This document shows positions 6,535 through 58,244 of a stretch of DNA of 64,000 bases, one piece after another. The position numbers and the translations under genes were made by a program. Numbering within the stretch: position 1 is the stretch's first letter; every line of letters starts with the position of its first letter. The stretch is from contig CM057141.1 in NCBI GenBank assembly GCA_029964075.1, positions 9,238,001 to 9,302,000 of the forward strand. Reading direction: 5' to 3'. Under the pieces are notes generated by a model, which made no database searches, was not told where the DNA came from, and saw only the letters and a list, made by a program, of their open reading frames with translations. Origin of the DNA: Patiria pectinifera (lineage: Eukaryota > Echinodermata > Asteroidea > Valvatida > Asterinidae).

Positions 6535-6963
6535 TTAAACCTGACGCCTTATGTATTTGGGTTTCTCTATGTCAGGCTGGCAGTGGATTGCGCAGTGGTC
6601 AGAGATAAAGTCTGCTGTTGTAATGGACTGTATGAGGGAATGAGGTTGTCGAGTAATCACAAGATCTATCGTGTGACCAGACGTGTGAGTACCGGTATTG
6701 ACTCTTTGCTGCATGTCGTACTGCATGAGTAGATCACTGAGCCGTCTGTGGTCAGTGGAGTTGTCACCCCAATAGACGTTAAAGTCACCGAGAATAATGA
6801 GGTCCCCAGTGAACAATACCTGGCTGTCAAGCAGATCAGCAAACTCGTCAATGAACGTACTGAATGGGTAGTTCACTTTCTTAGATGGTGGTGGCCGATA
6901 TTCAACAACAATACGGAAATGTTTGGCATTGGTTGTGAGTGAAGTCTGCTTCGATGTATTCAA
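6535..6963 (-). pseudogene. LINE APE endonuclease C-terminal half
   Basis: This 142-codon stretch contains VVEYRPPPSKK, LIILGDFNVYWGD (the APE GDFN metal-binding motif) and FISDHCAIHC (the catalytic SDH motif). It belongs to the LINE at 4888-7720. The N-terminal half of the domain lies in another frame at 7382-7500 and beyond, separated by a disrupted region at about 6964-7380. Confidence 0.85.
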
Positions 6964-7381
6964 AGGAAGGTGGTGGTTGGTTATTGGTGAGAAATGTATT
7001 CATGTAGTACATAATGGTAATAATGAAATTAGCCGAAAAGAATTAGTACAGTGACCTTAAAGGTACACTATACCAACTAATTGTACATATTAAATGAACG
7101 GCAAATTTTCATGGGGATCACGTTGTAACCTGTGTGAAGTATTTCCGGCAGAGTGTCCGCCTAATGGATTTTGCCAAGTCGGCAATCCTCACTTTCTCGC
7201 TGTTTGCTTGGCAGCAGACGCTGAGAGGTTTGATTTGTAGAGGAGTGCCACACCACCACCCCTCCGTCCTTTCCTGGGCATGTGGATTAATTTGAAACCT
7301 CTAGGGGTAACATCATGGGTGTGTTTGTCTTGTTCCAATTTTCCGTTAATGCCAGTACATGTATGTCAATGTTGTGATCAT

Positions 7382-18595: not shown

Positions 18596-19960
18596 GGAGA
18601 AATTGTGGTTGTGAACAACCACAGAGCTGTTCCCAATATTGATTATCTGTTGGACCCATGCATAGACATATAAGTAGAGATCTATGTCTGTTTGCAACAG
18701 AAGATATGGCTTTTCCGCATTATGATTTGGTTTTATCAATAATACGTCCCTGACTATGCATGAACATAAAATCTGTCAAAGTTAGCCGGAAATCGGCTAA
18801 AACGGTCACTGTCGACAGGATTTGACCTCAGCAACACGTGCGCTGTGCGCGGGCTGACTGACATACGATATGTACAACGTACGTGCATGTACATGTACAT
18901 GTACAAAGCAGAGTTATTGTCAACCTGAAGTTTTAAGCGTGCGCAGGGCATGTCCAAGTTTGCTTATTGCCTCAAAGCTTTGAAATGTTTTAGACCTACC
19001 CTTAAATAGACAATTAAAGTAAAAACTAATACAAAAACTGCCATGGTTGATTTTTCAAGAATTTTCTAAGGAAAAAGAGTCTTTTCATTATAACTTCCGG
19101 TCTGATGATGTCATACACCTTAAACTTTGCACACATCTTAAGTGGGTCAAGGTCATCCTATACACCAATATTTAGGCGATTCTGACAAACTTCGCCACAG
19201 ACATCTATTCAAAATACTTTTTTGAAAATTTTCAACCTGTCGCTAGAGGGCGCTCGAAGATTGCATGACGTCATAGGTAGATGATTTGAAGAATACTGTC
19301 AGCCAAGAGACTAACACCGTTAAAAGCAAGTTCATCTCTATAACCACTTTCAAATAATAAGCCACTTCCGGTTTTGGCCTTTTTCGACCGGAAGGAAGGG
19401 TCACTTGATTTTACGCACACTGAATGAAATAAAGACCTCAACCTACTCTACCACTTGCCAACAACAGAATGCTGCGGACGCGTACGGTTGATTTCTTATG
19501 CATTTTTAAATATTAAAAGTGTCACAATTTAATTGCCTATAAATAAACACCGGGTGACGTCATCATGACATCATCATTACACAATGTTTTTTTAAATTAG
19601 GGTCATTGCTTGGACAAAGATTGGTGTAAATGAATTACTGTCAAAGTGTCGAAAATGCCCTCTGAAAATTGACATTTTTTTTTTAATTTCTGTGTACAAA
19701 GTCTATGGGAAAAATTAAATATTCAAAAATCTATAAGAAATCACGTGATGACGTCAGCATAACGAAAAGTTTCGGCATGCATCCTCAGATGATGGTCTAA
19801 GTGTGTGCCAGGTGTGAAGTCGATCGCATTTGAAAAAAAGCCAAAAGTGACTTGTAGAACGAAAACACGTGTTATCCTATGAGAAAAAAGTCTGAAAAAT
19901 AAAAGAGAAAAAAAAAAATCACAGAAACAAGAGCTGTTTCGGTGTGTACACCGAAACAAC
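18596..19960 (-). mobile_element. Helentron-like unit with two successive 3' terminators
   Basis: Reading the minus strand, the outer 3' end is ATTGGGAACAGCT, then the hairpin TGTGGTTGTTCACAACCACA, then CTCC (in place of CTAG) at 18596-18599. About 60 bp upstream of it lies a second terminator, GCGGAAAAGCC plus a TCTGTTGCAAACAGA hairpin (18690-18722). The 5' palindrome is at about 19933-19960 (GTTGTTTCGGTGT facing ACACCGAAACAGC). The unit is an inverted relative of 49364-50765, with which it shares its whole length. Confidence 0.7.
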
Positions 19961-20880
19961 TAAAAATTGTAAAAAATCGTAAAAAATCTACCAATGATGT
20001 CATCGTGACATCATTTCAGATTTTGTGTACTAGTACTATTATCTACCCACCGACCAAGTTTCATGACAATTGGACATTCCCTTATATGTGTTTTAAAAAA
20101 ACACATTTTTGATGACGTCATAATGACGTCACACAATTTTTACAATTTTGTGAATATACCTGTTACCTAACAAACATAATACAAAAAGAATTTTGGATTT
20201 AGCATGTTTGAAGCCAATCGGATGAATAAAAGTGTTAACTTTTGTAATCAGAATACAATTGTAAATATTTTTAAAAATCGTTAAAAATCTACCAATGACG
20301 TCATCGTGACGTCATTTCAGATTTTGTGTACTAGTACTATTATCTACCCACCAACCAAGTTTCATGACGATTGGACATTCCCTCATATGTGTGTTAAAAA
20401 ATCACATTTTTGATGACGTCATAATGACGTCACACAATTTTTACAATTTTGTGAATATACCTGTTACCTAACAAACATAATACAAAAAGAATTTTGGATT
20501 TAGCATACTGCGTTCGTGAGATATGGCTTAAAGGTCCAAAACTTTGAAAAACCGATATAAAATGACACGGTGACGTCATGATGACGTCACCTTAATTTTT
20601 ACCTATAACACATCCCGGTCCGCTTTGAAGCAGAAAAGCAAATAAGAAAAAAAATATTCATAACAAAAACAAAGGCTTTTTGCAAATTTGCGAACCAAGT
20701 TTCAACCCAATTGGACTTACAATTCTCAAGATATAGGATCTTAAATATGCACCTTTAAGATGACCTCACTTGACCCATGATGATTTTGAGGCAGGTTTCC
20801 AATATGGGGGTTTTTACATAAGATAAGTTTTCTGGGAATATGTATATATAGGCTGTCTATCACTAAGCTATAAAGACGAT
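19961..20880 (-). mobile_element. Helentron-like body, internally duplicated
   Basis: Two near-identical blocks of about 310 bp follow each other (19965-20220 and 20272-20520). Each has 'accaatgaYgtcatcgtgac', 'ctagtactattatctaccc', 'ttcatgacRattggacattc' and 'tttttgatgacgtcataatg'. A damaged head palindrome (GCTTTTTGCAAATTTGCGAA) sits near 20670-20695. The right side runs up to the LINE tail at about 20880. Confidence 0.6.
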
Positions 20881-20949: not shown

Positions 20950-22350
20950 AGAAAGGAGGTAGGTAGTTCATCAAACAAAGTGAGTTCTGCCACAGGCCCG
21001 CTAGTAAGAGATGAGACCAATTCTGGCGGTGAATTTACGTCCGCAGAACTGACAAGAGAATGACCATGGCCCAGTCGTCGTGTTAGAGGGGGCACGTCAT
21101 TCGTGTCGGCGTTCTCGTGCAGTTTCTGCAGCATCACGGCGCCTCTCCTCTGCAATCTTTGTGCCAATGGACACTGCGGACCGCCATTTGGTGCGTTCAC
21201 CTGTGAGTGCCTCCCAATTGTCTGTATCGATGTTTGCCGCTTTAAGATGTCGTTTCACCCAGTCTAAGTAGCACAGCTTTGGGTGCCCAACATTTCTGTG
21301 ACCACAAGCTATCTGACCATACAGGATGGATTTGGGAAGTTGGTCATCCCCCATACGTGCAATGTGACCAGTCCATTTCAGCTGTCTATTGAGCAGGATG
21401 CTCTCGATGCTAAGGCTATTGTTGGCTCGAGTCAGCACTTCGTTGTTGGTTATGTGGTCCGAGTATTTGATGCCAAGGAGAGACCGCAGCTGCCTTATGT
21501 GGACTCGGGAGAGTCGTTTGATGTGGCGCCTGTAAAGCGTGTACGCTTCGGCTGAGTAGAGTAGGCAAGGTAATACGGCGGCTTAGTAGACCTTAAGTTT
21601 TGTCGAGAGTCTGATACCCCGTCTGTCCCAGAGTCTCTTTCGCAGGCGTCCGAAGGCAGCCCATGCTGATTGAGTGCGGGCAGCAAGCTCAGCATCCAGA
21701 GTGAGGTCACAAGAAACTGCAGATCCAAGGTACTTGAAGCGATCGATGGCATTAGGAGGATTTCCGTTGATCATGATGGTGGGTGGAGAGTAGGCAACAC
21801 CAGGCGTTGGCTGGCACATTACCTCAGTTTTCTTAATGTTGACACGAAGACCAAAGGCAGTGGACGCAGTTACAAATCGGTTTAACATCAGCTGCAGTGC
21901 TGTTTCTGAGTGTGCGACTAATCCTGTATCATCTGCGTACATCAGGTCTCTCACCCAAATCTTGTGCACTTTCGTCTTCGCCTTGAGCCTTCCAACATTG
22001 AAGAGCTTACCATCATTCTGAAATGTTACCCTAATGCCGTCTTCAGTCCCCCGGTTGGCAGTGAACATCACAGCGGAGAGAAATAACGTAAACAGGGTTG
22101 GAGCCAGAACACAGCCCTGCTTTACCCCATGCTCCACGTTGAATTCTTCACTAGTTGTTCCGCAAACTGAGACACTGGCCCTCATGCCATCATGGAAGCT
22201 CTGCAAGAGACTGATGAGTTTGTCTGGACATCCATACTTAGAGAGCAGAGACCACAGAAGTGGGCAGCTGACCGTGTCGAATGCTTTAGAGAAGTCTACA
22301 AATGCAACATATAGTGGCTTGTTCTGTTCAGCACATTTCTCCTGAAGCTG
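20950..22350 (-). pseudogene. LINE reverse transcriptase and C-terminus
   Basis: Downstream of the stop at about 22355 the frame resumes with AFVDFSKAFDTV (RT motif A, about 22290), then HGVKQGCVLAPTLFTLF (motif B, about 22130) and DLMYADDTGLVAH (catalytic YADD, about 21930). A further stop is at 21580. The C-terminus (21097-21438) has QLKWTGHIARMGDDQLPKS, typical of this family. After another stop, CQFCGRKFTARIGL (about 21040) resembles the family's terminal C2H2 finger, but its first histidine is lost. All core RT residues are present; inactivity comes from stops. Confidence 0.75.
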
Positions 22351-24373: not shown

Positions 24374-25368
24374 GGCCGTTTCGGCATGCATGCCGAAACA
24401 GCCTTTGTTTTCGTAAAAGTGTTTGTTTTTGTTGTTTTTTTTCCCCCCCAAGACTTTTGTCCATAGAATTTGTACACATTTTCCTCTTGCCCAGCACTTT
24501 GGGCACTAAAATCAGTCCGATTGCCTTCATACTTGGCACACACTTAGATCAGCACCTGCCACTGTGTGCTGAACATTGACGTCATCATGACGTCATCACG
24601 AGTCAAGTAACGTCATAATATAGGTGCATATTTTGAAGGGCTATATCTCCAGAACTACAGTTCCGATTGGGTTGAAACTTGGTATGCACTTAGAACAGGA
24701 TGTGTTATAGATGAAAATTGAAGTGATGTCACGATGACATCATCACATGGCATGTGACGTCATATTAAAAGTGCATATTTTAAAGGCCTATATCTACAGA
24801 ACTACAAGTCCGATAGGGTTGAAAGTTAGTATGTACCTAGACCGGGATGTGTTATAGATGAACACTGAAGTGACGTCACGATGATGTCATCACGTGACGT
24901 GATATCATATTAAAAGTGCATATTTTAAAGGCCTATATCTACTGAACTACAGGTCCGATTGGGTTGAAAGTTAGTATGTACCTAGACCGTGATGTGTTAT
25001 AGATGAAAATTAATGTGGCATCACTATGACGTCATCTCATGTTAGTGAAGCCATATTAAAATTGTATCTTTTGAAGGCTAATATCTACAGAATGACAGCT
25101 TTGATTGGGGTGAAAGTTGGTATGTGCCCAGACCGAGATGTTTACCGATGAACATTGATGTGACGTCATCATGACGTCATAATATGACATGTGACATCAT
25201 AATTCAAAGCCCTAGGGAGAATGTGATCACATATTATATGCCACCATTTACTATAAGCAGAACTACACATTCTTCCTGGATGGAACTTATGCTTCAAACG
25301 TCACATGTCACATGTCACAAAAAAAGTTGCCAAAACAGCCCTGTGTTTGTCCACAAACATAAGTCTAG
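24374..25368 (+). mobile_element. Complete Helentron-like non-autonomous unit (995 bp)
   Basis: The head is a 30-bp palindrome GGCCGTTTCGGCATG facing CATGCCGAAACAGCC, one mismatch (24374-24403), followed by TTTGTTTTCGT and a T-run. Three or four internal ~180-bp subrepeats follow, each with 'atatctacagaactacaRgtccgat' and 'tgacgtcacgatgaYgtcatcac' blocks. The tail is TTGCCAAAACAGCC, the perfect hairpin TGTTTGTCCACAAACA, and CTAG at 25365-25368, flanked by T. The 3' hairpin plus CTRR-T ending is the Helitron hallmark; the 5'/3' inverted half-repeat fits Helentron/HINE structure. No protein is encoded. Confidence 0.75.
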
Positions 25369-27839: not shown

Positions 27840-28320
27840 ATTCACCAGAATTAGTTACTGAAATAGTGTTATCATGGACCCACTTGTACAACTGCACACA
27901 AGACCTAACATATATTCATGGAATAATTTCTAAATTTAAACCCCATTGTTTCACAAATTTGTTTAAACGAGAACTAAGCTTCTTAGCACTTTAAATTGGT
28001 TTGTTTACTTAACATCTTAACATTTTGATTTTCCATTCAATAAAAAAAACATAACAAATGTCCGGTTCAGTGACGGTGGAATTCAGCTGCAGCCCGTGTA
28101 CGATACCTTACCAACAGCACAGCCCACTGGCATTCCCGTTTGTAGGGAATCCACCTGGAAACATGTAAAACTAGTGATAACATAGAGCTATAAAAAGGAG
28201 CTCCATGGTGATAATAAGTATCAGCTCGCTCTAAACAAAAATTAACTATTGTCTTGGCGTAAAGAGGTGTAATGAATCCCATTTTTCATGGAGTTTATTT
28301 AGAAATTTCATTCGTTTTGG
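27840..28320. other. CNTRL intron, no recognised feature
   Basis: AT-rich intronic sequence between the exon donor and the hAT MITE. Small minus ORFs have no motifs. Confidence 0.4.
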
Positions 28321-28692
28321 CAGGCGCGGTTCTACGGCGGGGCTAGGGGGGGCTTTAGCCCCCCCCAAATTTTGTCTAGCCCCCAAAATAAATTCCTTAA
28401 AAAAAAAAATTGCATTAGCAAAAAGAAGGATTGTGATGTACATGCGAACAGTCTCCCCCTGAAGAAATAGTCGTGACAAGGGTGCATTAGTTAATACAGT
28501 GTGAATGATTTTAGGATTTTATTGGCGCTCCCCATTGAAAATATGGCATGAGCCCCCTATTGATTTTCGGAGGCCAAAGTGTCTGGAAAAAATAACCGGT
28601 CTACAATTTAGCACGCCTCCCTGAAAAAAATTCTGGATCCACCGTGCTAGCCCCCCCCCCCCAAAAAAATATTGGTTCTAGAACCGCGCCTG
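28321..28692. mobile_element. hAT-A MITE, complete, with 8-bp target duplication
   Basis: Termini CAGGCGCGGTTCTA and TAGAACCGCGCCTG are perfect inverted repeats. The flanks CGTTTTGG (28313-28320) and CGTTTTGG (28693-28700) form an exact 8-bp target-site duplication, as hAT transposases make. The interior has C/G runs and no ORF; a related copy is at 55392-55712. Confidence 0.93.
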
Positions 28693-28719
28693 CGTTTTGG
28701 ATGGAAAAATAAAGATTGA

Positions 28720-29155
28720 ACTCTCGAATTGAGCTTTCCAGGCATGGGTGCTGCCTCGTTTATTGAAACCGCAGGTAATACACACGTAATGCACACTAAC
28801 CATGCAGGTTGCCCAAGTAGTCTTAGTTTATTTCGTTGTCGCGTTTGGAAACCGACGCTCGAGCCGTGTATTAAGACAAATGAACCTGGTATTCCGCTTC
28901 ATTTGCACAGCCCACTGACTTTACGTGTGCTTTAAGTCTATACTTAACTGGTCCCCATGCATATGGTGCTTCGATAGACGTATACAATACACAGAACATT
29001 GTGCATGTACGGTACATAGGATACTACCAGATGCATGTACCCCCGTATAACAGGCAAAGGGTTAAAAGCAAATGAATTGGAATGCAGGGAGTTGAATTGG
29101 CAAGTCAAAAGAGCTTTTGGGTTTTTTTGTCAATCTTTTTAATTATTAAAGAAAC
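28720..29155. other. CNTRL intron, no recognised feature
   Basis: No ORF with recognisable motifs or repeat end was identified between the MITE and the next LINE. Confidence 0.35.
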
Positions 29156-29169
29156 CAGGTGCTCAGACA

Positions 29170-30366
29170 TTGGCCAAGGACTTTGTGGATTTCCTCTACA
29201 CCAAGATCAAGACTCTTCGCAGCAATCTTGACATCGCACAGCCGGTAGTATGTGCCGAGATATCGGAATCTTGTGCAAGTACATTCAACTCGTTTCGTGC
29301 AGTTTCCGAAATCGCAGTCCGCAACATCATCAAGGAATCAGGAACGAAGTCATGCCCCCTTGATCCACTTCCTGGCACACTCCTCAAACAATGCCTAGAT
29401 TCATTACTACCTTGCATCACTGGCATCATCAACAAATCGCTGACCACCGGGCAAATGCCACCAGAACTTAAAATTGCTAGAGTTGTTCCACTGATCAAGA
29501 AACCATCCCTTGATACCAAACAACTCAACAATTACAGGCCGATATCAAATTTGAAATTTGTATTCAAAGCAATAGAACGGGTTGCATCTTTCCAGCTGAA
29601 TGCCTACCTACAGCAGAATGGTTTGTTTACCCAAAGACAATCGGCATATCGTAAACTTCATTCAACTGAGACAGCACTTGTCCGAGTGCAGAATGATCTC
29701 CTCCAAGCAGTTGATCGCCATCAGGAAGCTATTTTAATGCTGCTTGATTTCTCTGCGGCCTTTGATACGATTGATCATCGTATCTTACTCAGACGCCTGC
29801 AATGCCGCTATGGGATCTCAGGCACTGCACTAGATTGGTTCACTTCATATCTACATGGCCGTCGTCAGTACGTAGACATCTGTGGAGTTTCATCAGCAGA
29901 ACTTCCTCTTGAAGAGGGTGTCCCACAGGGCTCTGTGCTTGGACCTACCTTGTTCACACTGTATTCTGCTCCGATCAGCGACATCATCAATAATCATGGA
30001 ATTAACCACATGATCTACGCAGATGATACGCAGCTGTATCTGGTATTCGACCCATCGACACGCTCTGAAGCTATTACGACCCTTGAGAGATGTGTCACTG
30101 ACATCAAAGCCTGGGCTGTTTGCAACAAAATGGTGTTCAACGACTCTAAGACAGAGATTGTTCATCTCAGCTCCCGTTTTGTAAAAGCACCACCCTTGCC
30201 CCCCATCATGGTTGGAGAAGTAGGTATTGAAGCATCAAGCTCGGCCAGAGATCTTGGTGTCGTTATAGACAGCACTTTGGAAATGAAATATCATGTTCGC
30301 GCCATCACAAGATCAGCTTCATTTGCCCTGCATAAGATTAGTAAGATTCGCAGGTACCTCAATTAA
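29170..30366 (+). pseudogene. LINE reverse transcriptase (large intact ORF)
   Basis: This 398-codon ORF begins with AKDFVDFLYTKIKTLRS of the pre-RT linker, then LKIARVVPLIKKPSLD and NNYRPISNLKFV (fingers), QSAYRKLHSTETAL, LLDFSAAFDTIDHRILLRRL (motif A), EGVPQGSVLGPTLFTLY (motif B) and HMIYADDTQLYL (catalytic YADD). It ends at TAA after KIRRYLN, where the family normally continues. The RT core is unusually well preserved compared with other elements here. The 5' endonuclease half is missing, so the element cannot be autonomous. Confidence 0.88.
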
Positions 30367-31683: not shown

Positions 31684-32105
31684 TTGAACTTTGTGAATGA
31701 TACCTTTCACAAGGACCAGATTCCCAGCACAGCCATCATTGGGACTTTCGACGTCTCATCTCTGTACACCAACATCCCACATGAGGAGGGTGTTCATGCT
31801 TGCTCCTTGGCTCTGGCCAAGGCAGGACACACGACTCCTCCCATCAGTGATGTTGGCACCCTTATGAGACTTATACTAACGAAGAACAATTTTCCCTTCC
31901 TTGGTGAACACTATCTACAGGTACACGGCACTGCAATGGGCACTCGCATGGCTCCCTCCATGGCTTGCCTCTTCATGGGTGACCTCGAAGAACGCATTCT
32001 TGCCTCGGCCCCATGTCGCCCTTGGATCTGGTGGAGATATATTGATGATGTTTTTTTTCATCTGGACCAGTGATGAGGACAGTCTCTTGACCTTCACTAA
32101 CCACA
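31684..32105 (+). pseudogene. Penelope reverse transcriptase core
   Basis: Motifs in order: IIGTFDVSSLYTNIPH (motif A), HYLQVHGTAMGTRMAPSMAC (motif B) and WRYIDDVFF (catalytic YxDD at about 32037-32058). A T-run shifts the frame right after IDDVFF; the other frame continues with IWTSDEDSLLTFTNHIN and stops at about 32112. The thumb and connection region that should follow is mostly missing. Family assignment is firm because DVSSLYTNIPH and GTAMGT are Penelope signatures. Confidence 0.85.
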
Positions 32106-32109
32106 TCAA

Positions 32110-32573
32110 TTGATTCCCTTGGTTACCACGTTTCACCCCAATCTCCCTCCCCTTCGCAAAATCACTAATGATAATCATCATATCCTCCATACTTCAGATC
32201 GCCTTGCCCGCGCCATCCCCAACGGCCCCACATTGGCTTACAGGCGTCCTCGAAATCTACGGGACTTGATTGTTCGAGCTGAAGTCCCATCCTTAGATGC
32301 ATCACCTCCCACCCAGCATGGTACTTTCAAGTGCAGTTTCAGATGTGTTGTCTGCCAGATTCATATCCAGGAGTCTGACTCCTTTTCTGGCCACTCTTCT
32401 GTCACTACACACAGAACCATTGGTAACATCACTTGTAACACCTCTAATGTCATATATCTCATTTCTTGCAGGGTCTGTGGAGTGCAGTATGTAGGTGAGA
32501 CTAAGAATACGCTCAAGAAGCGTTTCTATGCCCACCGGTCAACGGTCAACACCAAGAAACTAGACACCCCTGT

Positions 32574-32609
<36 letters not shown>

Positions 32610-33110
32610 CAAGCATTTATATGGCGCTCTACAACGATCACAGCGCCTCACAACAAACAGCTTAAACAGTTACTGAAAATTACAAAGAAATCATATACAC
32701 ACAAAAAAACAAGAACTATCATGCATTGGGAAATAGGTGTGTTTTGAGTAGGCGCTTGAAGATCGCTGTAGACGCAGCTTCCCTGATGTCAACCGGTAGT
32801 TGATACCACAATTTAGGGGCAACAACAGAGAATGAATTGTCACCCGCCTTCTTGTTGGAACGAGGAACAACCAGCCGGGTGAGATCAGAAGAGGAGCGGA
32901 GTCTCCTGCGATCTTCAGATCCATTCAAGTTGTACAAGTTGTACATCACTTCAACCTGCCTAACCACTCCATTTCTGATATGATTTTGCAGGGCATTGAA
33001 TCTCTTGGCCATCGCAAGGACTCAGTTCGCCTCAGCAGAGAGAAAGTGTGGATGAATCGTCTTCGAACTATTCAACCACATGGTCTCAACATCCAACTTG
33101 GAAATTATTA
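32110..33110 (+). pseudogene. Penelope C-terminal GIY-YIG endonuclease, split by LINE
   Basis: The first part (32110-32577) has RLARAIPNGPTLAYRRPRN, a Cys-rich CSFRCVVC linker and then NVIYLISCRVCGVQYVGET, the GIY-YIG core, followed by KKRFYAHRSTV. After the inserted LINE the reading resumes at about 32946 with HFNLPNHSISDMILQGIES and ends REKVWMNRLRTIQPHGLN. The catalytic arginine (RFYAHRS) is present. Confidence 0.82.
32578..32945 (-). mobile_element. 5'-truncated LINE inserted in the Penelope element
   Basis: The 3' tail is the (AAT)n run at 32578-32608 followed by TATGGCGCTC, the complement of a GAGCGCCATA LINE end. The minus strand encodes LYNLNGSEDRRRLRSSSD, SFSVVAPKLWYQLP and IFKRLLKTHLF (32719-32945). 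The boundaries are set by the Penelope frame, which breaks after VGN and resumes at HFNLPN. Confidence 0.85.
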
Positions 33111-43056: not shown

Positions 43057-43149
43057 GGGGTCGACTCATACGTTTCGCAAGGACTAGGGCCCTTTTGTGC
43101 AACGACAGGTGGGTACTCAAAACAGTAACTTCCGGCTACGAAATAGAGT

Positions 43150-44605
43150 TCACGAGTACTCCCCCGTCTGTGTACCTACCGAGAATAACACTGATTCCAT
43201 CTGCTGTAGAGTCAGAGATATCCGCCCTCTTAAAGAAAGGGGCAATACGCAGAGTGCCGACAGAGGATTTTTCTCGACATTCTTTCTAGCGCCAAAGAAA
43301 AAACCAAGAGAATGGCGACCAATTTTGAACCTTCGGCCTTTAAACAAATATGTCCGACCCAAACGGTTCCGGATGGAGTCACTGAAGACAGTTTTGGATT
43401 CATTACCCATTCCAACTTGGGCGGTGTCGCTCGATCTCAAAGACACCTATCTACATGTACCGCTGTGGAACGAACATCGGGCATTCCTTCGTTTTCGTTA
43501 CAATCAGCGGACTTACGAGTTCCTCAAGTTACCCTTTGGCCTTTCCACTGCCCCGAGGGTATTCACACGACTGGTGAAGGTCGTAGCTGGAATCCTCCGA
43601 CAATGCCAGGTGCAAATCTTTGTTTGCCTGGACGATTGGCTCATTGCGGGGGAGACAAAGGAGGAAACGAGTTGGGCACTTGAACTCACTTGCAACATCA
43701 TTTCAGAGTTGGGGTTCCTGGTCAACGTTGAAAAATCCCAACCAAACCCAACGATGCACCCAGTTTTCTTAGGAGCAAAGTTGGACCTCCAGCGAGGGCT
43801 GGCTTTCCCGACCGAGGAGCGAGTCCAAAATCTTGTGGACTGCATCGCCCTGTTCCAGACTGCCAGCGTGGCCCCGGCAATAGCCTGGCTTCGGCTATTG
43901 GGCCTAATGGCAAGCATGGTGGATGTGCTTCCATGGTGCAGGATGCGGATGCGCCCACTACAATTACATCTAATTGCCCACTACCAACCGTGCATTCACC
44001 AAATCCAACGGCCAGTGCCAATCCCAAACATGATTCGCCCCCATCTGGACTGGTGGTCTCAGCGAACAAACGTCAAGGCAGGACTGATTTTTCCACGACC
44101 ACAATCTTCTGTGACTCTGGTGACGGATGCCTCCAACACAGGTTGGGGGGCACATATTGGAATAGAATCAGCAGCAGGGTCTTGGTCCCAGGCGGACAGA
44201 CAGTGCCACATCAATATCCTGGAACTGCTTGCGGTCTTTTGGGCTCTGAAGCACTTTGTCGGACGGGTGACAGGGGAAGTAGTCCTCATAAAATCGGACA
44301 ACTCAACCGTCGTGTCTAACATAAACCGCCAGGGCGGGACACAGTCCCCGCAGTTGTGCATGCACACGTGGGAGCTCCTGCTGTGGTGTCAAGCGAGACA
44401 GGTTACGCTTACAGCAGTCCACCTGGCGGGGAAACTGAATATCATGGCGGACGCTCTGTCCCGGGGGAAGGTCCTTTCAACGGAGTGGACTCTTCACCCG
44501 ACAGTAGTTCAGTCGATCTTCCAAGTATGGGAAGATCGACTGAACTACTGTCGGGTTCGACCTTTCCGTCAAAACGGTCTTCCTGTTAGCCACGGCCACG
44601 GCTAG
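43150..44605 (+). pseudogene. DIRS reverse transcriptase-RNase H
   Basis: The open frame runs 43097-44605 (502 codons). RT motifs: FFLAPKKKPREWRPILNLRP, WAVSLDLKDTYLHVPLWNEH (motif A), LKLPFGLSTAPRVFTRL, and VQIFVCLDDWLIAG, where the YxDD box is CLDD. RNase H: VTLVTDASNTGWGAHIG, INILELLAVFWALKHF and IKSDNSTVVSNINRQGG with the expected acidic residues, then ADALSRGK. After residue 465 the frame enters a palindromic junction (44497-44555) and loses homology. Confidence 0.9.
44497..44555. repeat. Perfect 26-bp palindrome at a deletion junction
   Basis: Positions 44497-44522 (CCCGACAGTAGTTCAGTCGA then TCTTCC) are exactly the reverse complement of 44530-44555, with a 7-nt spacer. To its right the sequence is already late in the recombinase (TARRRSEIHAL at about 44600), so the N-terminal recombinase is missing. 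Confidence 0.95.
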
Positions 44606-49363: not shown

Positions 49364-50765
49364 GGCTGTTTCGGCAACCAGCCGAAACAGCCTTTGTTTT
49401 CGTTAAGATTTTTATTTTTTTGGCTTTTTTTTCCCCCCCCCCCACTTTTTCCCATAGGTTTTGTACACGTTTTTTTTTCAGAGCCACTTTGGCAATTTTT
49501 TTAAAATCCGATCAACTTTAAACTTGACATTAACCATCATCTGAAGATGTGTGCCAAAACATTTCGTCATGCTGACGTCATCAAGCGATTTATTATAGAA
49601 TTTTAAATATTTAATTTTTCCCATAGACTTTGTACACAAAAATTTATAAAAAATTGTCGATTTTCAGAGGGCATTCTCAACTCTTTGCCAGTAATTCATT
49701 TACACCATTCTTTGTCCAAGCAAAGACCCTAATTCAAACAACATTGTGTAATGATGACGTCATTAGGACGTCACCCGGTGTTTATTTATAGGCAATTAAA
49801 TTGTGACACTTTTAATATTTAAAAATGCATAAGAAATCAACAAAACGCGTCAGCAGCAATCTGTTGCCGGCAAGTGGTAGAGTAGGTTAAAGTCTTTATT
49901 TCATTCAGTGTGCGTGAAATCACGTGACCCTTGCTTCCGGTCGAAAAAGGCCAAAACCGGAAGTGGCTTATTATTTAAAAGTGGTAATAGATATGAACTT
50001 GCTTTTAACGGAGTAAGTCTCTTGGCTGATAGTATTCTTCAAATCATCTACCGATGACGTCATGCAATCTTCGAGCGCCCTCTAGCGACAGCTTGAAAAT
50101 TTTCAAAAATGTATTTTGAATAGATGTCTGTGGCGAAGTTTATCATTCCGCTAAATATTGGTGTATATGATGACCTTGACCCACTTAAGACGTGTGCAAA
50201 GTTTAAGGTGTATGACGTCATCAGACCGGAAGTTATAATGAAAAGACCCTTTTTCCTTAGAAAAGTCTTGAAAAATCAACCATGGCAGTTTTTATATTAG
50301 TTTTTACTTTAATTGTCTATTTAATGGTAGGTCTAAAACATTTCAAAGCTTTGAGGCAATAAGCAAACTCGGACATGCCCTGCGCACGCTTAAAACTTCA
50401 GGTTGACAATACCCCTGTTTTAAAACATGCACAGGACGTCCACAATGTACATGTACAATGTACATATACAATGTACATGCACGTACGTTGTACATATCGT
50501 ATGTCGGTCAGCCCGCGCGCAGTGCACATGTTGCTGAGGTCAAATCCTGTCCACAGTGACCGTTTTAGCTGATTTCCGGCTAAATTTGACAGATTTTATG
50601 TTCATGCATAGTCAGGGACGTATTATTGATAAAAACAAATCATAATGCGGAAAAGCCCTATCTTCTGTTGCAAACAGACATAGATCTCTATTCATATGTC
50701 TATGGGTCCAACAGATAATCAATGTTGGGAACAGCTCTGTCGTTGTTCACAACCACAATTTCTAG
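49364..50765 (+). mobile_element. Helentron-like array unit 1
   Basis: Head palindrome GGCTGTTTCGGC-AACCA-GCCGAAACAGCC, perfect 12-bp arms (49364-49392). The body is related, inverted, to 18596-19960. It has two successive 3' terminators: GCGGAAAAGCC with a TCTGTTGCAAACAGA hairpin ending CTAT (about 50648-50691), then GTTGGGAACAGCT with a TGTCGTTG/CAACCACA hairpin and CTAG at 50762-50765. Its head is of the GGCTGTTTCGGC type while its outer tail is of the AGCTGTTCCC type, so here they do not match. Confidence 0.75.
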
Positions 50766-50772
50766 TCTTTTT

Positions 50773-52229
50773 GGCTGTTTCGGCACTTTTGCTGAAACAG
50801 CCTTTGTTTTCGTTAAGATTTTTAGCTGTTCCCAATTTCAATTGGGAACAGCTCTTGTTTTCGTTAAAGTTTTTTTTTTTCCTTTTTTTTTTCTTCTTTT
50901 TTTTTCTTCTTTTTCTTTTTCCACTTTTCCCCATAGGTTTTGTACACGTTTTTATAGTACAAGCCACTTTGGCAATTATTTTACATCCGATCAACTTTAA
51001 ACTCAGCATAGTCATTAACCATCATCTGAAGATGTGTGCCGAAATTTTTCGTCATGCTGACGTCATCACGTGATTTATTATAGAATTTTGAATATTTAAT
51101 TTTTCCCATAGACTTTGTACACAGAAATTTAAAAAAAAAAATGTCGATTTTCAGAGGGCATTTTCGACTCTTTGCCAGTAATTTATTTACACCAATCTTT
51201 GTCCAAGCAAAGACCCTAATTCAAACAACATTGTGCGATGATGACGTCATGATGCCGTCATCCGGTGTTTATTTATAGGCATTTAAATTGTGACACTTTT
51301 AATATTTAAAAATGCATAAGAAATCAACCGTACGCGTCCGCAGCATTCTGTTGCCGGCAAGTAGTAGAGTAGGTTAAGGTCTTTATTTCATTCAGTGTGC
51401 GTGAAATCACGTGACCCTTGCTTCCGGTCGAAAAAGGCCAAAATCGGAAGTGGCTTATTATTTGAAAATGGTAATAGATATGAACTTGCTTTTAACGGTG
51501 TTAGTCTCTTGGCTGATAGTATTCTTCAAATCATTTACCGATGACGTCATGCAATCTTCGAGCGCCCTCTAGCGACAGGTTGAACATTTTCAAAAATGTA
51601 TTTTGAATAGATGTCTGTGGCGAAGTTTGTCGGAATCGCCTAAATATTGGTGTATATGATGACCTTGACCCACTTAGGACGTGTGCGAGGTTTAGGTGTA
51701 TGACGTCATCAGACCGGAAGTTATAATGAAAAGACCCTTTTTCCTTTGAAAATTCATGAAAAATCAACCAGGGCAGTTTTTACATTAGTTTTTACTTTAA
51801 TTGTCGATTGAAGGGTAGGTCTAAAACATTTCAAAGCTTCGAGGCAATAAGCAAACTCAGACATGCTTTGTGCACGCTTAAAACTTCAGGTTGACAATAC
51901 CTCTGCTTTAAAACATGCACAGGACGTCCACAATATACATGTACATGCACGTACGTTGTACATATCGTATGTCAGTCAGCGCGCAGCGCACGTGTTGGGG
52001 AGGTCAAATCCTGTCCACAGTGACCGTTTTAGCCGATTTCCGGCTCACTTTGACAGATTTTATGTTCATGCTTAGTCAGGGACGTATTATTGATAAAAGC
52101 ATATCATATTGCGGAAAAGCCCTATGTCCTGTTGCAAACAGACATAAATCTCTAGTTATATGTCTATGGTTCCAACAGATAATCAATATTGGGAACAGCT
52201 CTGTGGTTGTTCACAACCACAATTTCTAG
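50773..52229 (+). mobile_element. Helentron-like array unit 2 (nested heads, double tail)
   Basis: A GGCTGTTTCGGC-type head (50773-50802, one mismatch) is followed within 22 bp by a second head, AGCTGTTCCCAATT-TC-AATTGGGAACAGCT (50824-50853, perfect 14-bp arms). The outer 3' end is ATTGGGAACAGCT, hairpin TGTGGTTGTTCACAACCACA, CTAG at 52226-52229, so it matches the second head. An intact inner terminator, GCGGAAAAGCC, TGTTGCAAACA hairpin, CTAG (52152-52155), lies 74 bp earlier. No ORF. Confidence 0.78.
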
Positions 52230-52245
52230 TTTTTTTCTTCTTTTT

Positions 52246-54541
52246 GGCTTTTTCGCAATTTTGCGAAAAAGCCTTTGTTTTTGTTCTGATTTTATTTTTT
52301 TTTTAATTTCTTTTTGTCGCCAAAATCCCATAGACTTTGTACACGTTTTTTCTCAGTGCCACTTTTGGCATTAATCTTTGTCATACATCATTGAAAGTTA
52401 GCACAGGCATAGTCCCTATAGCAAAGATGTGTCCCGAAGAGTGACGTCATGGTGACGTCATCAAGTGATTTATTATAGATTTTTGAATATTTAATTTTTC
52501 CCATAGACTTTGTACACAGAAATTTAGAAAAAATTGTCATATTTAAAAATGCATAAGAAATCAACCGTACGCGTCCGCAGCATTCTGTTGCCAGCAAATG
52601 GTAGAGTAGGTTGAGGTCTTCATTTCATTCAGTGTGCGTGAAATCACGTGACCCTTGCTTCCGGTCGAAAAAGGCCAAAACCGGAAGTGGCTTATTATTT
52701 GAAAATGGTAATAGATATGAACTTGCTTTTAACGGTGTTAGTCTCTTGGCTAAAAGTATTCTTCAAATAATTTATCAATGACGTCGTGCAATCTTCGGGC
52801 GCCCTCTAGCGACAGGTTGAAAATTTGCAAAAATGTATTTTGAGTAGATGTCTGTGGCGAAGTTTGTCGGAAGCGCCTAAATATTGGTGTATATGATGAC
52901 CTTGACCCACTTAAGACGTGTGCGAAGTTTTAGGCGAATGACGTCATCAGACCGGAAGTTATAATAAAAAGACTTTTTTTCATTTGGAAATTCCTGAAAA
53001 ATCAACCATGGCAGTTTTTATGTTAGTTTTTACTTTAATTGTCGATTTAAGGGTAGGTCTAAAACATTTCAAAGCTTCGAGGCAGTGTTTTCGGACATGC
53101 CCTGCGCACGCTTAAAACTTCAGGTTGACAATACCTCTGCTCTAAAACATGCACAGAACGTCTATATGTACATACACGTACGTTACGCACATACATCGTA
53201 CATGTATGTCAGTCAGCCTGCAGAGCACGTGTTGCCGAGGTCAAATCCTGTCCACATCACAGTGACCGTTTTAGCCGATTTTCGGCTAACTTTGACAGAT
53301 TTTATGTTCATGATGCGCATAGTCAGGGACGTATAATAAAAAATCATAATGCCGAAAAGCCCTATGTTACGTATTTAAAGGTGCAGTTTTTCTGCAGTGG
53401 GATTTTCCACAAGTCTTTTCCTATACAACACTGATATCTTACTGAGTAGTTCTGAACTTCAGCCGAGAATTACTATGAGAAGGAAAAAGAAATTGTATTT
53501 TTTTTTTGCGCTGTCATTCGATTGAACATATTCCTAAGGGTCAGAATATCAAGTAATATTTCATAAAAATGTTTCAGTTCAAAGGCAAATTACAAATTTA
53601 AAGGTGCAATTTTTCTGCAGTTGGATTTTTTTAGCCCGTTAATTTTGTACATGTGTTAACCCATTGACTTTGTACACGTTTTCAAGCCACCATTTCTATA
53701 ACTTGGCGATCTGGAATCGTTATCAATGTTACAGCCAAGGAAGACCCTCATACAAAAATTATGCCAAGACTATGACGTCATGATGACGTCATCACCTAAT
53801 TTTTTTTATTGATTTTTGAAAATTTACGTGGATATTATGAAGTCCTATATCTACAGAACTGTAAGACTTGGTATGTGGCTAGTCCGGGATGTGTTATAGG
53901 TAAAAAAAAAGTAGGTGACGCCATGATGACGTCATCCGGAGATTTTATATGAATATTTGAAGTTTTTGACCTTTTAGCCATATCTCATGAACGTAACATG
54001 CAAAATTCAAAATTCTTTGTGTATTTGGTCTGTTAGGTAAAAGGTATTTGCACACAATTTTGAAAAAAATATCTGACATCATTATGACGTCATAAAAATG
54101 CGATTTTTCAAAATATATATAAGGAAAGGTCTGACTGTCATGAAACTTAGTGGGTAGGTAAATAATGGTACTAGTATACAAAGTTTAAAGTGACGTCACG
54201 ATGACGTCATCGTTTGGTTTTTATAATTTTTAGATATTTATAATTTTATTCTGCTTCCACAAATTGCACACTTTCTTTCATCCGATTGACATTAAACTTG
54301 GTTCAAACCAAAACCACAATGACAAAATGTGCATTGAGAAGGGTCTTAAGGATGAAGTCATTGCAGGGCAAGTGACATCATTTGATAAAATTATACTTTA
54401 GGAAATATTTTAAGCGTTTTGAACAACCTTTAACTGCATGAAGCACTCTGAAAAGTGACTGCAAAAAGGACAAACGAAACAAATATTTGTAAAATGCGAA
54501 AAAGCCCTGTGTTCTGTTTGCGAACAGACATACAGCTCTAG
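52246..54541 (+). mobile_element. Helentron-like array unit 3 (matching head and tail)
   Basis: Head GGCTTTTTCGCAA-TT-TTGCGAAAAAGCC, perfect 13-bp arms (52246-52273). Tail TGCGAAAAAGCC, hairpin TCTGTTTGCGAACAGA, CTAG at 54538-54541, so 12 of the 13 head-arm bases recur at the tail. The body again includes a damaged inner tail (about 53350). From 53370 to 54480 it includes sequence also found at 56090-56640. Confidence 0.78.
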
Positions 54542-57060
54542 TTTTTTTTTTTGTTTTTTTTTTCTCCCCAGTCATTTTGCCCATAGCATTTGTACACGTT
54601 TTTTTGTTACCGGCACTTTGGGCACTAAAATCAATCCGATTGACTTTATACTTGGCACACACTTAGACCAGCACCTGAAGTTGTGTGCCGAACATTGACG
54701 TCATCGTGACGTCATTGACTTATTTATTATAGAATTTTGAATATTTAATTTTTCCCATAGACTTTGTACACAGAAATAAAAAAAAAATTGTTGATTTTCA
54801 AAGGTCATTTTAGACTCTTTGCCAGTAATTCATTTGCACCAATCTTTGTCCAAGCAAAGACCCTAATTCAAACAACATTGTGTAATGATGACGTGATGAT
54901 GACATCATCCGGTGTGTATTTATAGGCAATTAAATTGTAACACTTATAATATTTAAAAATGCATAAGAAATCAACCGTATGCATCCGCAGCATTCTGTTA
55001 CCGGCAAGTGGTAGAGTAGGTTGAGGTCTTTATTTCATTCAGTGTGCGTGAAATCACATGACCCTTGCTTCCGGTTGAAAAAGGCCAAAACCGGAAGTGG
55101 CTTATTATTTAAAAATGGTAATAGATATGAAATTGCTTTTAACGGTGTTAGTCTCTTGGCTAAAAGTATTTTTCAAATCATCTACCAATGACGTCATGCA
55201 ATCTTCGAGCGCCCTCTAGCAACAGGTTGAAAATTTGCAAAAATGTATTTTGAATAGATGTCTGTGGCGAAGTTTGTCGGAATTGCCTAAATATTGGTGT
55301 ATATGATGACCTTGACCCACTTAAGACGTGTGCGAAGTTTTAGGCGAATGACGTCATCAGACCGGAAGTTGTAATAAAAAGACCCTTTTTCCAGGTGCGG
55401 TTCTACGGGGGGGCTGGGGGGGGGGCTGTAGCCCCCCCCAAATTTTGTCTAGCCCCCCCAAAATAAATTCCGTAAAAAAAAAATATTGTATTAGCAAAAA
55501 GAAGGATTGTGATGTACATGCGAACGGTCTCCCCCTAAAGTAGAAATAGCCGTGAGAAGGGTGCATTAGTTACTATAGTGTGAATGATTTTAGGATTTTA
55601 TTGGCGCTCCCCAATATAAAATAACCGGTCAACATTTCAGCACGCCTCCCTGAAAAAATTCTGGATCCACCGTGCTAGCCCCCCAAAAATATTGGTTCTA
55701 GAACCGCGCCTGCCTTTTTCATTTGAAAATTCCTGAAAAATCCACCATGGCAGTTTTTATGTTAGTTTTTAATTGTCTTTTTAAGGGTAGGTCTACAACA
55801 TTTCAAAGCTTCGAGGCAATAAGCAAACTCGGACATGCCCTGCGCACGCTTAAAACTTCAGGTTGACAATACCTGTGCTCTAAAACATGCACAGAACGTC
55901 TTTATGTACATACACGTACGTTACGCACATACATCGTATGTCAGTCAGCCTGCAGAGCACGTGTTGCCGAGGTCAAATCCTGTCCACATCACAGTGACCG
56001 TTTTAGCTGATTTTCTGCTAACTTTGACAGATTTTATGTTCATGCATGTGCATAGTCAGGGACGTATAATAAAAAATCATAATGCCGAAAAGCCCTATGT
56101 TACGTATTTAAAGGTGCAGTTTTTCTGCAGTGGGATTTTCCACAAGTCTTTTCCTATACAACACTGATATCTTACTGAGTAGTTCTGAACTTCAGCCGAG
56201 AATTACTATGAGAAGGAAAGAGAAATCGTTTGTTTGTTTTCGCGCTGTCATTCGATTGAACATATTCTTAAGGGTCAGAATATCAAGTAATATTTCATAA
56301 AAATGTTTCAGTTCAAAGGCAACTTACAAATTTAAAGGTGCAATGTTTCTGCAGTGTTTTTTTTTTAGCCCATGTTAGCCCATTGACTTTGTACACGTTT
56401 TCAAGCCACCATTTCTATAACTTGGTGATCTGGAATTGTCATCAATGTTACAGCCAAGGAAAACCCTCGTACAAAAATTATGCCAAGAGTATGACATCAT
56501 GATGACGTCATCACCTATTTTTTTGTATTGATTTTTGAAAATTTACGTGCATATTACGAAGTCCTATATCTACAGAACTGTAAGTCTGATTGGGTTGAAA
56601 CTTGGTATGTGGCTAGACCGGGATGTGTTATAGGTAATAAAAAATTAGGTGGTCGAGACCTGAACATGATTTTTGCGGGAATTGATAGAATTATCGAGGG
56701 TCTTAATTTTTTAAATATGTGCAAATAAATCACGTGACCCTTTCTTCTGGTTGAAACCGGAAGTGCTTTGTAATTTAAAATTGGTAAAAGACGCGAACTT
56801 GCTTTCAACGATGTTTGCTCTGGCTAAGTTGTTCTTTACCATAATATTATAGTAATATATGAAACTTTATGTGACATCATCATGACGTCATCACGTGACA
56901 TGTGACGTCATAATTCAAAGCCCTATGCGAATGGAATCACATATTATATGCCACCATTTATTATAAACAGAACTACACATCCTTTGTTGATGGAACACAT
57001 GTCACATGTCACAAAAAGCTACCGAAACAGCCCTATGTTTGTCCACAAACATATGTCTAG
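54542..57060 (+). mobile_element. Helentron-like array unit 4 (no head palindrome)
   Basis: Starts directly after the CTAG of unit 3 with a T-run and the post-head CCCATAGCATTTGTACACG block. It ends ACCGAAACAGCC, hairpin TGTTTGTCCACAAACA, CTAG at 57057-57060. It is interrupted by the hAT-A MITE at 55392-55712. Confidence 0.7.
55392..55712. mobile_element. hAT-A MITE, second copy, 8-bp target duplication
   Basis: Ends CAGGTGCGGTTCTA and TAGAACCGCGCCTG. The flanks CCTTTTTC (55384-55391) and CCTTTTTC (55713-55720) are identical. Unit 1 shows the empty site as GACCCTTTTTCC at about 50245. No coding capacity. Confidence 0.95.
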
Positions 57061-58244
57061 TTATTTTTTTTTAAATTTTTCAGCCCATGCCCATAGTATT
57101 TGTACACTTTTTTTGTCACTGGCACTTTGGGCACTAAAATCAATCCAATTGCCTTTATACCTGGCACACACTTAGACCACCACCCACAGATGGTCGCCGA
57201 ACATTGACGTCATCATGACGTCATCATGAGTCACGTGACGTGACATTATATGCGATTTTTTTGTTGTGACCATATTCTGGCAGAATTCGGCTAGATCTGA
57301 CAGATTGGGCAATATCTCCAGAACTACAAGTTTGATTGGGTTGAAAGTTGGTATGTACTTAGACCGGAATGTCTTATAGGTGAAAATTAACTTGCCGTCA
57401 TGGTGATGTCACCACGTGACAAATGATGTCATATAAAATGAACATATTTCGAAGGCCTATATCTCTTGAACTACAGGTCCGATGGGGTTGAAAGTTGGTA
57501 TGTACCTAGACCGGGATGTCTTATAGATGAAAATTAACTTGACATAATGATGACGTCATCACGTGACATATGACGTCATATAAATTAAACATATTTTGAA
57601 GGCCCATATCTCCAGAACTACATGTCCGATTGGGTTTAAAAGTGGTATGCACCTAGACCGGCCTGTGTTATAGATGAAAATTGAAGTGAAGTCACAATGA
57701 CGTCATCATGAGTCACGTGACGTCACGTTAAATGTTATTTTTGAAAATCAATATAAAATCAACCGTGAGAGACCTGAACTTGATGTTTGCGAAAATTGAT
57801 AATAATGCAGGGTCTTCATTTTTAAAATTACGTGCGAAAATCACGTGACCCTTTCTTCCGGTTGAAACCGGAAGTGCCTTGTAATTTAAAATGGGTAAAA
57901 GATGTGAACTTGCTTTCAACAATGTATGCTCTGGCTTAGTTGCTCTTCACAGAAAAAAACGGTGACGTCATAAAATGTTAGAGCGCCCTCTTGCGGCAGG
58001 TTGTTATAGATGATTATAGATGAATATTGATGTTACGTCTTCATGACGTCAGCACGTGACATGTGACGTCATAATTCAAGGCCCTTTGAGAATGTAATCA
58101 CATATTTATATGCCACCATTGATTATTTATAACAGAACTACACATCCATTTTGGATGGAACTTATACTTGAAACTTTACATGTGACACATGTCACAAAAA
58201 AGTTACCGAAACAGCCCTGTGTTTGTCCACAAACATAAATCTAG
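57061..58244 (+). mobile_element. Helentron-like array unit 5 (no head palindrome)
   Basis: Begins right after CTAG with a T-run and CCCATAGTATTTGTACAC. It has three ~180-bp internal repeats with 'gaactacaRgtccgatKgggtt' blocks, as in 24374-25368. The tail is TTACCGAAACAGCC, hairpin TGTTTGTCCACAAACA, CTAG at 58241-58244. A CNTRL exon lies 204 bp downstream. Confidence 0.72.

Follow-up and report, generated by a model that had tools for sequence, protein, structure and literature searches.

Probable nesting of Helitron2/Helentron-type elements with at least four end types in the asteroid Patiria pectinifera

On how Helitron-type elements select a 3' end, the literature covered here presents the 3' hairpin as a general terminator or derives repeat pairing from few elements. 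In Helraiser/Helibat, which belong to Helitron1, the 3' hairpin is described as a terminator (PMC5876387). For Helitron2, the pairing of terminal repeats was proposed to end replication, and compensatory changes were found in two Culex elements (Bao and Jurka, 2013; PMC3627910). Arrays of Helentrons and HINEs (DINE-1 group) are tied to bypassed termination, which is also cited as the explanation of the tandem arrays of bat and silkworm Helitrons (Thomas et al., 2014; PMC4067079). Published features include the use of arm pairing to signal an end, TT targets, self-insertion, elements with more than one 5' terminus and arrays attributed to bypass; neither a genome-wide bracket analysis nor end-type pairing was found in the literature searched, most of it outside subscription journals. 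The present analysis concerns a window of 64,000 nucleotides of Patiria pectinifera (contig CM057141.1, positions 9,238,001 to 9,302,000) and an array of five CTAG-terminated units in it, at 49364-58244; their 5' and 3' ends are called heads and tails. The array probably consists of nested Helitron2/Helentron-type elements, of which at least four end types exist in the genome, with matched arms at their ends and tails that close their heads like brackets. Hundreds of natural copies of these ends, including fossil tails that were seemingly read through, make end choice testable, and the bracket order yields relative insertion ages along with a route for possible end exchange.

Each tail contains an inverted copy of the left arm of the head, followed by a hairpin and CTAG, which is an asymmetric terminal inverted repeat. 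The 5' repeat folds into a hairpin with a stem of 12-13 bp in all five head variants, and the distance from the end of the tail arm to the end of CTAG is 27-38 bp, for about 20-40 bp between 3' repeat and element end in the Helitron2/Helentron plan. A T precedes 47 of 52 heads and follows 64 of 68 tails, some overlapping loci on contig C7 being counted twice. By eye, split elements show insertion between T's with no duplication that could be told from the T-run, and the flanks of split A, B, C and D elements agree with those of intact ones when set side by side. Such natural empty sites support CTAG as a real boundary, as the original prediction had assumed. The same asymmetric repeats, the 5' hairpin formed by the 5' repeat, a 3' repeat directly preceding the 3' hairpin and insertion after T's are reported for Helitron2 (PMC3627910). 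Likewise, Helentrons and HINEs have palindromic subterminal repeats, a 3' palindrome, a TT target, tandem repeats in some copies and non-autonomous members (PMC4067079). Helraiser/Helibat share the 3' hairpin followed by CTAG; Helitron1 is nevertheless described as having no inverted repeats and inserting between A and T, whereas the elements here have matched arms and a T-rich target (PMC5876387). With no 5' TC start, no AT target and inverted repeats present, the hairpin-CTAG end is all that they have in common with Helitron1. They are non-autonomous elements of the Helitron2/Helentron type, and their ends fall into no fewer than four types; A, B and C occur in the array, and D was found outside it (L029, L030/L036).

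The five units follow one another with CTAG-to-T joins, palindromic heads and tails made of arm, hairpin and CTAG, and they carry three end versions, A, B and C, all of which agrees with the original prediction. Head A1 comes first and is followed by a C tail ending at 50765; then come heads A2 and C with a second C tail (end at 52229), head B with a B tail (54541) and, last, two A tails (57060 and 58244). The ends of a unit were thought usually to match, which is true of units 2 (C) and 3 (B); unit 1 combines an A head with a C tail, and units 4 and 5 have no adjoining head. Unit 2 begins with two stacked heads, A then C. Unit 1 is 96.9% identical over 1.18 kb to the locus L002, in which an A head is followed by a decayed C head, and it seems to have lost the C head that this relative still keeps. 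The head-to-tail joins are thus as first described, but the idea of five independent units was rejected, since units 4 and 5 read as the right-hand portions of A elements that have their heads farther upstream. Unit 4, for example, is made up of an A-type body start, a centre common with unit 3, and an A tail. Nested insertion is the best reading of this order; the C head then goes with a C tail and the B head with the B tail, head A2 belongs to the tail at 57060, and head A1 belongs to the one at 58244 (Table 1).

Table 1. Positions in the window of the array parts and of a simple element of type A
Feature	Position	Strand	Remarks
Head A1	49364..49392	+	Palindrome; left-hand piece of the outermost A element; partner in the bracket reading is the tail ending at 58244
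Unit 1	49393..50765	+	C-type body behind head A1; own C head missing
Fossil B tail in unit 1	50646..50681	+	Arm and hairpin without CTAG, in a C-tailed unit
Tail C of unit 1	50725..50765	+	Arm, hairpin 50738-50757, CTAG 50762-50765
Head A2	50773..50802	+	Left part of another A element, with unit 4 as its body and tail
Head C of unit 2	50824..50853	+	21 bp downstream of head A2
Unit 2, body and tail C	50854..52229	+	Arm 52189-52200, hairpin 52202-52221, CTAG 52226-52229
Fossil B tail in unit 2	52110..52155	+	Has its own CTAG; inside the C-ended unit
Head B of unit 3	52246..52273	+	
Unit 3, body and tail B	52274..54541	+	Arm 54495-54506, hairpin, CTAG 54538-54541
Unit 4	54542..57060	+	Right part of an A element, without a head; CTAG of its A tail at 57057-57060; partner of head A2
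Unit 5	57061..58244	+	Right part of the outermost A element, without a head; 147-bp internal repeats; A tail
Tail A of unit 5		+	Arm 58206-58216, hairpin 58220-58235, CTAG 58241-58244
Simple A element	24374..25368	+	Un-nested, head A to tail A

The 613.5 Mb genome was searched with strict patterns of these ends, using reversed patterns as controls. There were 234 matches to tail A, 860 to tail B, 465 to tail C, 168 to head A and 680 to head B against zero for each reversed pattern genome-wide, which excludes chance. The matches listed were the first 100 places per end pattern. End types were assigned by fuzzy matching (a degenerate B head in L021 and a D body start in L030 were recognised by eye), and fossil B tails at most 110 bp from a C tail were put aside before pairs were counted. 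The count over fetched loci comprises 23 arrays with 52 heads and 44 tails and leaves out L001, which lies in the window, the overlapping C7 loci L003, L004, L006, L008 and L035, and also L037-L041 and L042. Of 30 tails that come directly after a head, 26 share its type; the mean was 9.3 when types were shuffled globally (0 of 5000 shuffles reached 26), and 5 of 5000 shuffles within arrays did so. L009-L028 were picked by tail A only (odd rows 1-39 of the tail A list), so their heads were not selected for. Similarly, a count on contigs C1-C4 from coordinates alone, with C heads not included and three fossil B tails dropped, gave 39 direct pairs of the same type out of 45, for a shuffle mean of 20.6 and none of 3000 shuffles reaching 39. 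Ten of the 31 A heads on C1-C4 have a listed tail at most 10 kb downstream, nine of type A and one of type B; the tails among the matches listed there are 96 B, 49 C and 31 A. That head type predicts tail type beyond the window, a check which the original prediction had proposed, is supported by these counts. The duplex between head and tail arms, calculated with DNA parameters, is also strongest with the matched tail arm for the A, B1, B2 and C heads.

The resumption of bodies and two predictions that came true are stronger evidence for nesting than the match of a tail to the top of the stack of open heads. The body that resumes after an inner tail is of the type of the open upstream head in 10 of 11 cases (21 of 100000 permutations), counting only those with an open head in view. 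Four predictions were set before the loci were fetched, and two of them held. The predicted D tail was found (L030/L036), after a D body start had been spotted by eye in L030. The single case of an A head followed by a B tail (L042) turned out as predicted: a B head stands downstream of its A head, and its B tail gives way to an A body. The top-of-stack type matches that of the tail in 31 of 38 tests in the fetched loci and in 51 of 64 on C1-C4, where balanced stacks exist, for example four B heads followed by four B tails. From the end of a head to the next head there are 9-52 bp in the loci (23 gaps). All 85 pairs of successive tails of the same type less than 6 kb apart among the matches listed (A 8, B 27, C 50) are on the same strand.

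Several results weigh against this account. Seven of the 38 top-of-stack tests fail (L021 twice, L022, L025, the window tail at 50765 and the window minus strand twice), and some of these failures were explained only afterwards, by decayed heads. A rule that simply takes the nearest head gives 28 of 38 over all tails, so that only the eight tails that come after another tail discriminate; there the bracket rule is right in five and the nearest head in two, a difference that is weak alone, since 108 of 5000 global shuffles and 450 of 5000 shuffles within arrays reach five. Five more resumed bodies have no open head in view (L007, L014, L016 twice, L028), and one of the ten matches, on the minus strand of the window, is doubtful because its D start also directly follows its D head. 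A predicted A tail was not found within 2 kb, and L042 has an extra second B head with no tail closing it within 1.9 kb. The array of C units on C7 shows more tails than heads, which calls for head loss or another process. With respect to recognition by the arms, the D head forms a slightly stronger duplex with the A tail (-14.9) than with the D tail (-13.0), and pairing at the level of B subtypes, as coded by head arm and tail hairpin, is not supported (22 of 34, with 0.56 expected).

The pairing of types may also come from descent and not from recognition, the ends of each family being inherited together without functional matching. Head, body start and tail are indeed all correlated within a type, and copies of one family make up a large part of the sample. 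This explanation is possible but doubtful, as central bodies that are 88-99% alike are flanked at either side by end modules of type A, B or C, and as fossil B tails lie within C-ended units and in one A-ended locus. Units 2 and 3, which were rightly said to have matching ends over related bodies, are 88-98% identical in the alignable centre, compared with 70-75% (in 120-bp steps) over the first ~180 bp and 63-68% at the 3' end. Unit 4 agrees with unit 3 at 92-99% in the centre and at 64-76% over its last ~400 bp, which match unit 5 at 84-93%. A fossil B tail is present just upstream of 11 of 13 distinct C tails, and in units 1 and 2 it starts 79 bp before the C tail arm. At L005+1327 it is a mere remnant, and L038, whose C tail has no fossil, matches units 1-5 only at the 3' end and the following head. 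On C1-C4 the strict patterns detect a fossil ahead of no more than 3 of 49 C tails; as the fetched fossils show, many have decayed too far for such a pattern. A second fossil-B junction is common to L009, L031, L033 and L034, with an A tail 641 bp past it in L009, the other three being seen only ~500 bp beyond it. The dead B tails in C-ended units and in one A-ended locus suggest that replication from an outer head may pass foreign tails, and the earlier proposal that ends exchange as a pair gains support from them and from the modular identity of the units.

FoHeli of Fusarium oxysporum likewise stacks several 5' termini, inserts into its own 5' end and forms composites; in its model, replication from the outer head stops at the first 3' end, whereas here foreign inner tails persist as fossils within matched outer ends (Chellapan et al., 2016; PMC5148889). 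The coexistence of at least four end types, the pairing counted over many copies, the mixed-type nested stacks and the fossil tails in differently ended composites set the present elements apart from the Helitron2 account (PMC3627910). A tentative explanation, for which belief falls somewhat short of doubt, is that one genome holds several mutually exclusive head-tail pairs, that DNA pairing between head arm and tail arm sets the stop of replication, and that foreign tails are ignored, so that end pairs would swap over a shared body by nested capture while arrays record the order of insertion. In the account of nesting, which is the more probable part, a new copy would enter between T's, in many cases within the T-run that directly follows an existing head, and in the same orientation; the older element is then cut in two, its head stranded upstream and its body left headless downstream. 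Insertion behind older heads would hence produce stacked heads upstream, headless bodies after them and bracket-like closing of the tails. The RepHel protein would probably start at a head and stop at the tail whose arm pairs with the left arm of that head, and inner foreign tails would consequently be read through. Composites with matched outer ends and dead inner tails could then amplify, by which a related body would acquire a different pair of ends.

Tandem units could instead be born together, as rolling-circle concatemers copied past a tail whose termination was bypassed. Headless C units ~1.34 kb apart are common among the tail C matches listed, and such units outnumber heads in the C7 array, both of which suit bypass; the resumption of a different type after a tail, with the head of that type upstream, is not accounted for by it. 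Seven units on C7 are 98.0-99.6% alike, and one on C5 resembles them at 97.9-99.3%, which means that adjacent units are not clearly more similar to each other than to remote ones. Bypass is therefore unlikely, and these identities do not support the view that the C arrays arose chiefly by recent local tandem duplication either. The long array itself, with its headless C units ~1.34 kb apart, lies in L029 and L035 (C7:44395300-44421699). Slippage or tandem duplication of a head module of ~50 bp, with headless bodies left by head deletions between T-runs, would suit the tight spacing of strict A and B heads in succession on C1-C4 (49-58 bp in 19 of 32 neighbouring pairs), the T-runs flanking each head, the apparent loss of the C head from unit 1 and the extra heads with no tail in view in L042 and L015, but is quite improbable, as several mixed-type stacks close in reverse order (L011, L030/L036, the window) and as stacked heads are followed by a mean of 1.47 tails (n=17) against 0.51 for single heads (n=67; permutation p 0.00015).

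A Rep would presumably mobilise the nested elements. There are 148 Helitron_like_N matches in the genome, many of which lie within long open frames. Most of those listed fall on contig C7, which is perhaps a repeat-rich chromosome. The original prediction called the units Helentron-like, for which Helitron2/Helentron-type is the better term. Possible differences from the published Helentrons (PMC4067079) are that no endonuclease domain, which strict Helentrons have fused to RepHel, was found in the one partial RepHel frame scanned (at least 1859 amino acids, with DUF6570, Helitron_like_N and PIF1) and that the ends are not linked to a Rep. The proposed search for an autonomous Rep-helicase element with the same ends led to RepHel genes but to none delimited with both ends, which leaves a separate Rep variant for each pair of ends, the other idea of the original prediction, a possibility, and no head was found in the 3.8 kb beyond the Rep of a C7 candidate. 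A C tail lies 14.7 kb from a related Rep. Near-equal distances between Rep and tail (14,747 and 14,724) were dropped as proof of one autonomous C element, because the tail in L039 belongs to a fossil-bearing unit. For 69 typed Reps and the tails listed, 24 of 41 tail-Rep rows at most 40 kb apart have the Rep upstream on the opposite strand, an excess that is suggestive only, as many rows share an array; the others are 5 upstream on the same strand, 10 downstream on the opposite strand and 2 downstream on the same strand. One Helentron/HINE family likewise has its Rep in reverse orientation (PMC4067079).

Elsewhere in the window, the simple A element contains 145-bp tandem repeats at 24577-25209, which may be likened to the satellites that oyster HINEs are described as carrying (PMC7492417). 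A minus-strand unit at 18604-19961 has a D head and a D-type start but a C tail, and is possibly a true end hybrid. Unit 4 contains an inserted hAT-like miniature inverted-repeat transposable element (55392..55712, + strand), with the terminal inverted repeat CAGGTGCGGTTCTA and the 8-bp duplication CCTTTTTC recognised by eye, and the stretch at 28315-28698 resembles it. Retroelement-like fragments with endonuclease, reverse transcriptase and GIY-YIG domains occur at 6535-6999 (-), 21583-22350 (-), 29143-30366 (+), 43088-44605 (+) and 32101-32676 (+).

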